A program made the translations under genes and the position numbers. Shown piece after piece: positions 14,779-17,464 of a DNA stretch of 22,595 nucleotides. The stretch is from the IMG/VR virus record IMGVR_UViG_3300030107_000869, positions 1 to 22,595 of that record. One strand, written 5' to 3'. Each line of letters starts with the position of its first letter. Within the stretch, counting starts at the first letter, position 1. This stretch comes from a virus. The notes under the pieces were generated by a model that was not told where the DNA came from, searched no databases, and saw only the letters and a list, made by a program, of their open reading frames with translations.

Positions 14779-15051
14779 TTAGTTCATCTGGATACGACAA
14801 GCCAGTTCTGGTCGAACCGTCTTGTAACCGTAGAGAACATCAATACGAGTCGGGAACGTATCAGCACTGATGCTGTAGTCCCTGACAATCCGCATTGAGA
14901 TTCCATCCATGACCTCACGGGCTGAGAAATCAACGCCTTGAGGCATGACCAGATCAGCCGTCGCAAACACGAACGCATCTTTATGATACGCAAGCGACAC
15001 ACCATAATCGGCAGCGTTGCCAATGTCCGTGCTTTGGTCACTTTCGTTTTT
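14779..15051 (-). CDS. Major capsid gene exon 3
   Basis: 90 codons plus stop, predicted to start AAA AAC GAA (15051). An in-frame TAA at 15057-15055 shows that coding cannot extend further upstream. The exon encodes the conserved C-terminal part of the coat (NAADYGVSLAYHKDAFVFAT, then MDGISMRIVRDYSISADTFP and TRIDVLYGYKTVRPELACRI). An internal ATG at 15000 is a normal Met-less splice-frame position, not a likely start. Confidence 0.7.
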   Translation of the reverse strand, partial: KNESDQSTDIGNAADYGVSLAYHKDAFVFATADLVMPQGVDFSAREVMDGISMRIVRDYSISADTFPTRIDVLYGYKTVRPELACRIQMN

Positions 15052-16522
15052 CGTTTACCTTCATCTGAAATCGCTAGTTTCAGACCGCCTTTCGGCTGCT
15101 TACTGTTATCCAGTAAGACGAGACTATATCACCATCCCAAAGGGATGCCCTGCGCTTCGGATCGCTTGATCCTACTCCTTGCGGATAGTCGTTGAACCTT
15201 CCTCGTTAGAGGCTTGGCTGCTGATTGCCCTCGACTTTACGTTAGGGGTTCCCAGCAGTTCACAGGGTTATTCACTAATACTTTGCAGTATCAGGCCACT
15301 AAAACTTAATGGAGGGCTGCGTTGTTCGCAGGCATTGCGCTGACGTTCTGCTTTGCGCCGGAACTGTGAAGTGCCGGAGAAAAGCTGATCGACGTTGCTG
15401 AAGTGCCAGCGTCGGCGGTCACAACAAACTCCTTGAGTTTGGTCTGAGTCGCCTTGGTTTCTGGATGCACCGCGTAAACAGAAGCGAAATAGAATATATC
15501 GCCTTTTTTCCAGGTGCCTGCTCCAGTATCAACCGTAATGCTGGTCGATCCCTCGGCAATCGTACCTGAATCGTTGACAAGATAGTCGCCGGTTCCATCG
15601 TCAGTCAATTGTTACACAGCTTTTTTAATTACACTGTCTCCGACTTTCATCGGAGTATCGGACTATATCATCATCCGCTTGGGACGTTCTGCGCTCTTGG
15701 GCCTTTACCATCCTCTTGCGAGGACTCCTTGGCCTAGTCTCTGAACCTTCCTAACATTACTGCTAGGCTTGGCTGCTGATTGGCTTATTATTCCTAACTT
15801 AGCTTTCCAGCAATTCACAGAATTTGCACCTACCGCTTGCACGGCAGGGGGGCAATCTAATGGATAGTTTTACCCGTCGTATGCTGCGGCCACATGGAAT
15901 TTTCCATGATGTCGGAAAATCCAAACGTGTTACTTGCCACACGCCCTTCACGATAGTTTTTGCTGAGATTGCTCTGATCGTTGAACAGACCTTTCATAGC
16001 ATCAACCAAGTCAAGGTTGTCTTGCGTGTTCAAGTTGAGGCAACGCCCGTCATACGGAGCGAGGTTGTCTGTAAGCACTTTTGATGCCTGCAAAACATCG
16101 CCCGTGGTGATGGTCGCGCCCACGTCGGTCACATGGTTGTACACGTCCTTATACATGGACATCGCATCAGATTCGATGTTCGCCGCTAAGACGCTCATCG
16201 CAGGCTCAAGAATACGAGAGCCAAAGTCGTCAATGTCAAGTGTAAGGTCATCACTCGTCCAGGTTGTATCTACACCCTTTTGTGTAGCAACTTGCAAGCT
16301 GACGCTGCTTTCAACGACATCCTGCGAGGATAGGGACGCACCCGTTCTCACAGTGTACTGGTTAGGGAGCCTGATCTTTAAGGTATCACCAATCTTGGCT
16401 CCAGATCGACCAAAGCTGTCATCATAGGAACGGTTTACCGTGCCTACAAAATTCAACTTCTGGTGTAGAATGCGGAGAGCCTCACGGGTCACCGCAGTCG
16501 GTGTCAGAGTTGTGTTAGCCAT
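14779..16522 (-). CDS. Major capsid protein (P22 coat-like), gene split by two group I introns
   Basis: Predicted join on the minus strand: 16522-15872, 15605-15309, 15051-14779, giving 406 codons, close to the P22-type coat length. ATG 16522 has AGAGGA 4 nt upstream. Exon 1 carries typical HK97-fold coat phrases (GDTLKIRLPNQYTVRTGASL, TLDIDDFGSRILEPAMSVLA). Exon 2 carries a beta domain with GTWKKGDIFYFASVYAVHPE. Exon 3 carries AYHKDAFVFATADLVMPQGV and ends TRIDVLYGYKTVRPELACRI, the standard C terminus of this family. Each exon alone ends in an in-frame stop just inside the following intron (UAG 15859-15857, UAA 15308-15306), so splicing is needed for a full coat protein. It is flanked by scaffold and adaptor genes and should form the icosahedral shell. 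Exon 1 read through gives only 221 residues. Confidence 0.85.
15052..15308 (-). ncRNA. Group I intron 2 in the capsid gene (~257 nt, Twort-like, no ORF)
   Basis: P1 is clear: exon CCAU with intron UAA pairs with UUAGUGG (15302-15296) around a 3-nt loop. This is a 7-bp hairpin with the splice-site U opposite G. P10 can form between exon 3 AAAA and the UUUU just before the guide sequence, supporting the 3' end at G 15052. The core shows CTGCTGG (P4), CAATCAGCAGCCAAGCCT (15227-15210), a P6 hairpin CCTC/GAGG, R segment GGAAGGTTCAACGACTA (15202-15186) and S segment GATATAGTC (15130-15122). P7 forms by GACTA/TAGTC. The stretch between R and S (ATCCGCAAGGAGTAGG, then GATCAAGCGATCC) follows the Staphylococcus phage Twort intron closely, suggesting subgroup IA with P7.1/P7.2. 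Hairpins CTTACTG/CAGTAAG and TCTGAAA/TTTCAGA form P9 elements. No ORF. Confidence 0.87.
15309..15605 (-). CDS. Major capsid gene exon 2 (insertion-domain exon)
   Basis: 99 codons from ACT (15605) to CAT (15309), with both junctions in phase 0. An in-frame TAA (15614-15612) just upstream shows that this exon cannot be read from the intron. The content (GSTSITVDTG, KKGDIFYFASVYAVHPE, KLKEFVVTAD, TSISFSPALH) corresponds roughly to the beta-rich I-domain of P22-like coat proteins. Confidence 0.7.
15606..15871 (-). ncRNA. Group I intron 1 in the capsid gene (~266 nt, no ORF)
   Basis: On the minus strand the segment holds the group I core in order: P4 5' strand UUGCUGG (about 15815-15807), the Q-like CAATCAGCAGCCAAGCCT (15782-15765), a P6 hairpin CCTA/TAGG, R segment GGAAGGTTCAGAGACTA (15751-15735) and S segment GATATAGTC (15669-15661). 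P7 forms by GACTA (15739-15735) with TAGTC (15665-15661). P8-like TCCTC-GCAA-GAGGA and P9-like CTCCGA/TCGGAG hairpins are present. A stem of TGCCG with CGGTA near the 5' end is a P2 candidate. The predicted 3' end is ...GTAACAATTG (last G 15606), like the end of the phage Twort intron. It should self-splice with a guanosine cofactor. No homing endonuclease is encoded. Exact ends are predictions. Confidence 0.8.
15872..16522 (-). CDS. Major capsid gene exon 1
   Basis: 217 codons, ending ...HTTG (GGT, base 15872). The splice site is set by pairing GGGU/AA of the exon-intron boundary with UUGCCC (15855-15850), which places the exon's last U opposite G. The junction is phase 0. A fallback 5' site after CAT (15860), just before UAG, would add four codons but has no comparable P1 helix. 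Confidence 0.65.
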
Positions 16523-16549: not shown

Positions 16550-17464
16550 TTACGCCCTCGAATTGCTTCGGGACGCGATTTGCTTTTCGCGCATAACCAA
16601 CCACTCTTTCATATCCATCTTATCGGGGTCTTTGACGGGGTTCGCTCGTTTGCCTTTCACCTTCACCGCCGCTTTTGGTGGTTCAGCTTGGGCTTTTGGC
16701 TTGGCTGCTTTTTGCTTCGCCACAAGCTCATCGTACCGTCTGGCCTTGTCGATAAGTTTGACATGAACAGGGTCGGCAATGCTTGCCACAGCTTCAGCAC
16801 TCAGACCCTGGCTTACGCCGTAATCTGCGATTTGCTTGCCTAGCTCTGGCGACCATCCATCGATCTCTTTTTTAAGGACTTGCTGGCCTTGTTCTAAAGC
16901 CTTGGCGTGCTGTTCCGCACGTTGACTCTGGAATTGCGCTTGCCTCTGGTCGAGTCGATTGATTGCTTGCTGCCGCTGGTTCTCCAACTCCCGCTTTTGA
17001 CGGTCGAGGGCTGAAGCCTGTCCGACATCGTTTTGATAAAGCTCATCCCAGTTCAGAGCGTTGTATTGCTCGATTTGCTGTTCAAGAGCCTTAACTGCTG
17101 CAACATCCGAAATTGTCTCTTGTTGGAAAGTTGCCTGCTGTTCCAAAGCTGCCTGCTGCTGCTCTACAGCTTTACGCTGTACAGAAACATCCTGCATCTT
17201 TTTGGTATAATCGCTCTGCCGTAGCAAAGCGTCTTTGAGTTGTGGCGGCACTTCAAATTCTTCGCCGTCATACTCGACTGAAACAAATTCGGGAGCCGCT
17301 GGCTCCCCCTCTGTTTCTTCTGTAGCCTCAACCTCAAGGGTTTCAGCTTCTGTGTCGGACACTTCCTCGACCGTCTGCGTATCCTCTGCCTGAGTGGCTT
17401 CGGGTGCTGGGCTTTCGGCTTCTAAAGCAAGTTCCGCTGCCGGAGTATTTGCCTCGTCTGACAT
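16550..17464 (-). CDS. Capsid scaffolding protein (304 aa)
   Basis: ATG 17464 has AGGAG about 10 nt upstream and follows the portal by 13 nt. The first 75 residues are very acidic and low in complexity (Glu/Ala/Pro/Thr). They are followed by a short ordered motif, FVSVEYDGEEFEVPPQLKDA. Residues about 90-215 are a long Gln/Glu/Arg/Lys coiled coil (RKAVEQQQAALEQQATFQQE, RELENQRQQAINRLDQRQAQ). The C-terminal part has a helix (LSAEAVASIADPVHVKLIDK) and a basic Lys/Ala/Pro tail ending KEWLVMREKQIASRSNSRA. Acidic N terminus, central coiled coil and basic C terminus between portal and coat genes are the hallmark of podovirus scaffolds, which guide procapsid assembly and then leave. No protease motif is visible. 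Confidence 0.85.
   Translation of the reverse strand: MSDEANTPAAELALEAESPAPEATQAEDTQTVEEVSDTEAETLEVEATEETEGEPAAPEFVSVEYDGEEFEVPPQLKDALLRQSDYTKKMQDVSVQRKAVEQQQAALEQQATFQQETISDVAAVKALEQQIEQYNALNWDELYQNDVGQASALDRQKRELENQRQQAINRLDQRQAQFQSQRAEQHAKALEQGQQVLKKEIDGWSPELGKQIADYGVSQGLSAEAVASIADPVHVKLIDKARRYDELVAKQKAAKPKAQAEPPKAAVKVKGKRANPVKDPDKMDMKEWLVMREKQIASRSNSRA

Follow-up and report, generated by a model that had tools for sequence, protein, structure and literature searches.

Two group I introns interrupt a P22-type phage coat gene and belong to lineages found at several sites of that gene

Results

The coat gene of a P22-like late operon is divided into three exons

The stretch of DNA analysed here, referred to as the window, comprises 22,595 bases of an IMG/VR virus record from an uncultured phage and carries a P22-like late operon on its minus strand. 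The operon includes genes for the terminase large subunit, portal, scaffold, coat, adaptor and other virion proteins; the portal gene matches the PF16510 profile (E 1.8e-195), and the scaffolding protein gene (16550-17464, minus strand; PHROG 3927, E 7.1e-35) lies directly upstream of the coat gene. The P22-type coat gene spans 16522-14779 on the minus strand and is interrupted by two group I introns. Its reading frame, followed from 16522, halts at 15859-15857, reopens, halts again at 15308-15306 and reopens to 14779. On the same strand, exon 1 (15872-16522, codons 1-217), for which L081 and other uninterrupted relatives give a 1:1 alignment, is followed by intron 1 (15606-15871, 266 nt, lineage A), exon 2 (15309-15605, codons 218-316, roughly the insertion or I domain), intron 2 (15052-15308, 257 nt, lineage B) and exon 3 (14779-15051, codons 317-406 and the stop), which was delimited by alignment with relatives. 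The ends of both introns were set by relatives with empty sites. The initial annotation placed a stop just past each 5' splice site, and these are indeed present: an in-frame TAG (15857-15859, minus strand) lies 13 nt into intron 1, and TAA (15308-15306, minus strand) is the first codon of intron 2.

Junctions were fixed by tblastn of the joined protein against the fetched relatives. In this comparison, the window breaks only at 217|218, with 266 nt extra, and at 316|317, with 257 nt extra. Empty-site relatives place the junctions at GGT|ACT and CAT|AAA, respectively, both in phase 0, and L081 (IMGVR_UViG_3300030107_001518), which has neither insert, reads HTTG|TDDG and AALH|KNES without interruption. 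Removal of both introns leaves 406 codons encoding a 406-aa protein that matches intron-less relatives residue for residue and matches Pfam P22_CoatProtein (PF11651) over residues 1-403 (E 6.7e-37). The intron lengths, coordinates, phase-0 junctions and 406-codon P22-type product described in the initial annotation are all confirmed by these comparisons, and alignment with uninterrupted coats, which it had proposed as a check, revealed no extra residues at either junction in close relatives. An AlphaFold model of the intron-less L081 coat (pLDDT 84 from 110 sequences; 32 from 9 sequences) matches the coats of P22, Sf6 and CUS-3 with E values to 1.7e-21. The fetched loci, a partly redundant set, contain 246 full-length uninterrupted coat ORFs, and 59 relatives of the coat in bacterial genome records (57 approximately full-length, 2 incomplete) were free of introns.

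Of the substitutions that separate the joined exons of the window from those of L081, its nearest intron-less relative, 113 are synonymous and 23 nonsynonymous (dN/dS 0.043), with dN/dS values of 0.017, 0.052 and 0.071 for exons 1, 2 and 3. Judged by these ratios, all three exons are under strong purifying selection, and a conserved, functional coat protein would require splicing. Readthrough or frameshifting in place of splicing was ruled out, since relatives lack the inserts, and an assembly artefact is unlikely given that the same introns were found again in many separate records.

The limits of exon 2 (residues 218-316) are close to those of the coat insertion domain, as judged from a weak match (E 0.0039) of residues 211-315 to the solved chain 6mnt. 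We did not retain this as a meaningful correspondence: the agreement is approximate, and no such relation to the domain is seen at the other intron sites, so that the overlap is probably a coincidence.

Both segments have the core of a group I ribozyme

The proposal that two group I introns lie in the coat gene was borne out by a search with the Rfam covariance model Intron_gpI (RF00028, gathering score 50), the run suggested in the initial annotation. Intron 1 scored 105.2 bits (15882-15638, minus strand; E 1e-26) and intron 2 scored 81.2 bits (15318-15099, minus strand; E 1.6e-19), both matches spanning the full model (1-253).

The group I core that had been described for each segment was further substantiated by covariation among eight intron variants of this coat family, drawn from lineages A and B and 49-57% identical to each other. 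Changes were counted on a fixed structure with named helices P2-P9, including the P7 pseudoknot. In these helices, 96.3% of cells are paired across the eight variants, including the core with P7 pseudoknotted with P3. Two-sided changes occur in 29 of 49 pairs, as against 12.2 ± 2.2 in shuffles (0 of 500 reached the observed count), and when the partner was slid by 1-3 columns as a control, at most 6 such pairs remained. P7 itself is invariant across the eight variants and is therefore uninformative for or against the structure; its 5' strand, GACUA, lies at 15735-15739 in intron 1 (3' strand at 15665-15661) and at 15186-15190 in intron 2 (3' strand at 15126-15122), all on the minus strand.

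Each intron also has an internal guide sequence that pairs with the end of its 5' exon, GCCC in intron 1 (15850-15853, minus strand) with GGGU and GUGG in intron 2 (15296-15299, minus strand) with CCAU, leaving a U.G pair at the splice site. In all introns P1 consists of 6 bp, to which the exon contributes 4 or 5. The exon U is paired with an intron G at the 5' splice site in 10 of the 10 introns checked, a terminal G is present in all introns, and P1 of the intron after codon 83 in a relative shows a compensated AA/UU to GA/UC change. Two hairpins were identified between P7 and the P3 3' strand, by eye and by single-sequence folding. Hairpins P7.1 and P7.2 between P7 and P3 are a mark of subgroup IA2, and both introns probably belong to an IA2-like subgroup. 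Neither contains an endonuclease ORF, the longest stop-to-stop frames being 54 aa in intron 1 and 47 aa in intron 2.

On this sequence evidence, we consider it about 95% probable that both segments are group I introns that self-splice. We infer both splicing activity, which is highly likely, and its efficiency. In the pathway envisaged, the intron RNA would fold into the group I core, and the end of the 5' exon (GGGU or CCAU) would form P1 with the guide sequence, placing the U.G wobble at the 5' splice site. An attack by guanosine there would be followed by one of the freed exon behind the terminal G of the intron, and loss of both introns would restore the 406-aa P22-type coat protein. The early stops would end translation of unspliced RNA ahead of the ribozyme core.

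Two intron lineages occupy five sites in coat genes of related phages

We searched 49 related IMG/VR records in their whole length with RF00028. Matches were obtained in 10 of them, every one inside the coat gene, and L011 begins inside an eleventh; introns thus recur in 11 records besides the window. Five sites are occupied in the coat gene, after codons 61, 83, 217 and 316 and within codon 109 (phase 2). Lineage A is found after codon 61 in L007, after codon 83 in L012, and after codon 217 in the window, L005, L006, L008, L013, L014, L092, L170 and, in part, L011. Lineage B is found within codon 109 in L007 and after codon 316 in the window, L007 and L084.

All lineage A sites (61, 83, 217) are preceded by GGGT and all lineage B sites (109, 316) by CCAT, exon tetramers that pair with the guide sequence of each intron. 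The three lineage A sites of the clade, at codons 61, 83 and 217, are also the only places where GGGT is present in the coat reading frame of the window. L007, which carries three introns together, has GGA instead of GGT in the exon at 217 and no intron there. At site 316, CTCCAT is present in 3 of 3 intron-bearing alleles, and CCAT is absent from all 15 empty alleles compared. Because the match to GGGT or CCAT is needed for splicing at all, it is by itself no proof of guide-directed insertion.

A scan of IMG/VR for the end signatures of lineage A returned Rfam-confirmed introns only in this coat family; matches in L164, L166, L168, L254, L256 and L257 were set aside as due to chance. The corresponding scan for lineage B gave two chance matches, in L171 and L173, that lie outside the coat gene and have no Rfam intron match.

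A P22-type coat annotated in two pieces is also present in the Manatee Spring podovirus MW202674.1 (L330 1756-2022, about 16824-17090). The split lies near residue 85, measures about 270 nt and contains a group I-like GACUA...UAGUC by eye; it gave no Rfam match even at E 1.

The introns appear to have spread between phages and to new sites

Intron 1 of the window shares 94.7% identity with its counterparts at site 217 in L005 and L014, whereas the fourfold-degenerate sites of the respective coat genes are only 35.5% and 43.5% identical. For intron 2, the corresponding values are 93.8% against 54.8% with L084 and 99.6% against 82.8% with L007. The presence of introns that are ~95% identical in genes whose fourfold sites are 36-44% identical indicates horizontal spread. 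Structural constraint alone is unlikely to explain the intron identity, since the site-83 intron has the same fold and is 72% identical. Relocation to a new site is implied by the 89.5% identity between introns at two different positions of one gene, 61 and 217. The window sequence that directly follows site 217 on its 3' side shares 75% identity with L081 and 92-96% with L005, L014, L092 and L012, before it becomes L081-like again. A short tract may have been exchanged here; this is suggestive only, because L012 and L084 are empty at 217 yet share the flank. In the intron tree, deep branches are poorly supported.

No endonuclease is encoded by any introns of this coat family, in which no frame exceeds 54 aa. 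Searches of the window and 14 relatives (15 records, all fragments) yielded no match to HNH_3 or GIY-YIG, and a reverse transcriptase domain (RVT_1, PF00078) was not found in the same records. A free-standing HNH nuclease gene of 209 aa (L329 1087-1716) is present in the record of the intron-less L081 and is the only HNH among the 15 records.

The route by which the introns moved is much less certain than their identity as splicing group I introns. Spread between phages at the same site could proceed by DNA recombination or gene conversion, and movement to new sites within the coat gene is plausibly explained by reverse splicing with subsequent cDNA recombination. That endonuclease-free introns transpose in this way among the guide-matching sites of one late gene is our tentative proposal, guide-directed reverse splicing being plausible but unproven. 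Homing by a trans-acting endonuclease with relaxed specificity is also plausible. The introns would then still self-splice, and the several sites would result from ectopic homing at the DNA level by a free-standing or lost endonuclease, a possibility we hold just as tentatively. The site-217 exon flank and the CTCCAT of site 316 seem to have been exchanged together with the intron, as in gene conversion, an HNH gene exists in the record of an intron-less relative, and all records are partial. However, that record is the only one of the 15 with an HNH, HNH_3 and GIY-YIG are missing from all of them, and sites of the same lineage have only about 4-6 nt in common. Homing endonucleases usually recognise longer sites.

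An alternative in which related introns of other phages served as an outside pool that supplied each site independently, with no movement inside the gene, is unlikely. The intron core does resemble that of many phage introns, as 638 GenBank phage records match at the DNA level, with DNA polymerase and terminase genes among the best matches. However, the confinement of Rfam-confirmed introns to this coat family in the lineage A scan argues against such a pool, as does the similarity of the introns at 61 and 217, which is far closer than anything found outside the coat gene. We regard it as highly improbable that the segments are dead or fail to splice, with the coat fragments used as separate proteins or the phage defective, given the strong purifying selection on all three exons, the preservation of structure by compensatory changes, the recurrence in 11 other records and the existence of one-piece, uninterrupted homologues.

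Discussion

The initial annotation regarded two introns in a capsid gene as unusual, a claim that is weakened by published examples. The mycobacteriophage LittleE has a group I-type intron in its major capsid gene, with splicing demonstrated by RT-PCR and N-terminal sequencing (PMC3706429), and the same paper refers to a capsid-gene intron in the lactococcal phage Tuc2009. LittleE resembles the window in this respect, but its single intron of 819 bp carries a LAGLIDADG-like gene and resides in an unrelated siphovirus, in contrast to the two ORF-less introns of ~260 nt in a P22-type coat gene described here. CrAss-like Delta and Zeta phages have group I-type introns, including a major capsid protein (MCP) gene in five pieces (PMC7886860). 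The Zeta case shares with the window several group I-type interruptions in one major capsid gene; there, however, the phages are large gut phages and the introns were identified through the endonuclease-type domains that they encode, whereas the window introns have no endonuclease. Faustovirus likewise has many group I introns in its capsid gene, but is a eukaryotic giant virus with 13-18 MCP introns, some with endonucleases (PMC9116030), compared to a phage with two introns and no endonucleases. In Jug phages, a genome contains 18.5 group I introns on average (PMC12363816). Since introns in capsid genes, even several per gene, are already published, two in one coat gene are not new in kind.

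The interesting part is the dispersal over several sites within one phage gene. In the literature searched, which covers few subscription journals, we found no paper describing multi-site intron dispersal within a phage protein gene. BAKA and Optimus provide a parallel in a 265-bp group I intron without an endonuclease gene, located in a virion gene and related to an intron elsewhere (PMC3706429). In that case, the gene encodes a tail protein and the related element occupies two sites in different genes, whereas the clade of the window has several sites in one gene. In fungal rDNA, as in this clade, related endonuclease-free introns occupy different guide-matching sites; their spread by reverse splicing was inferred for nuclear rRNA genes (PMC1299323), whereas the window concerns a phage protein gene. 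Such a distribution is the accepted circumstantial sign of reverse splicing and has been documented for rDNA (PMC1299323, PMC3984707), and a 2014 review noted that direct experimental evidence for the route through reverse splicing and cDNA recombination was lacking (PMC3984707).

The spread of group I introns that lack endonucleases, both within a gene and from gene to gene, is a long-standing question. With 0, 1, 2 or 3 introns per gene, drawn from two lineages and distributed over five sites, the closely related phages studied here make their coat gene a compact natural test bed for this process. As predicted from sequence, the gene of a heavily made phage protein would depend on two ribozymes in the window and on three in a relative. 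Furthermore, coat genes may appear broken in metagenomic annotation though intact.

Coat relatives also occur in bacterial genome contigs (L270-L328); their identity is 48-70% over the full length and reaches 72% in one partial match of 122 residues. The coat match in Phenylobacterium sp. J367 (L326 3001-3366) covers the first 122 residues only and comes without an Rfam intron match, so the gene is possibly a frameshifted or truncated prophage gene. The contigs are mostly from Phenylobacterium and other Caulobacteraceae MAGs, hinting that these hold related prophages.
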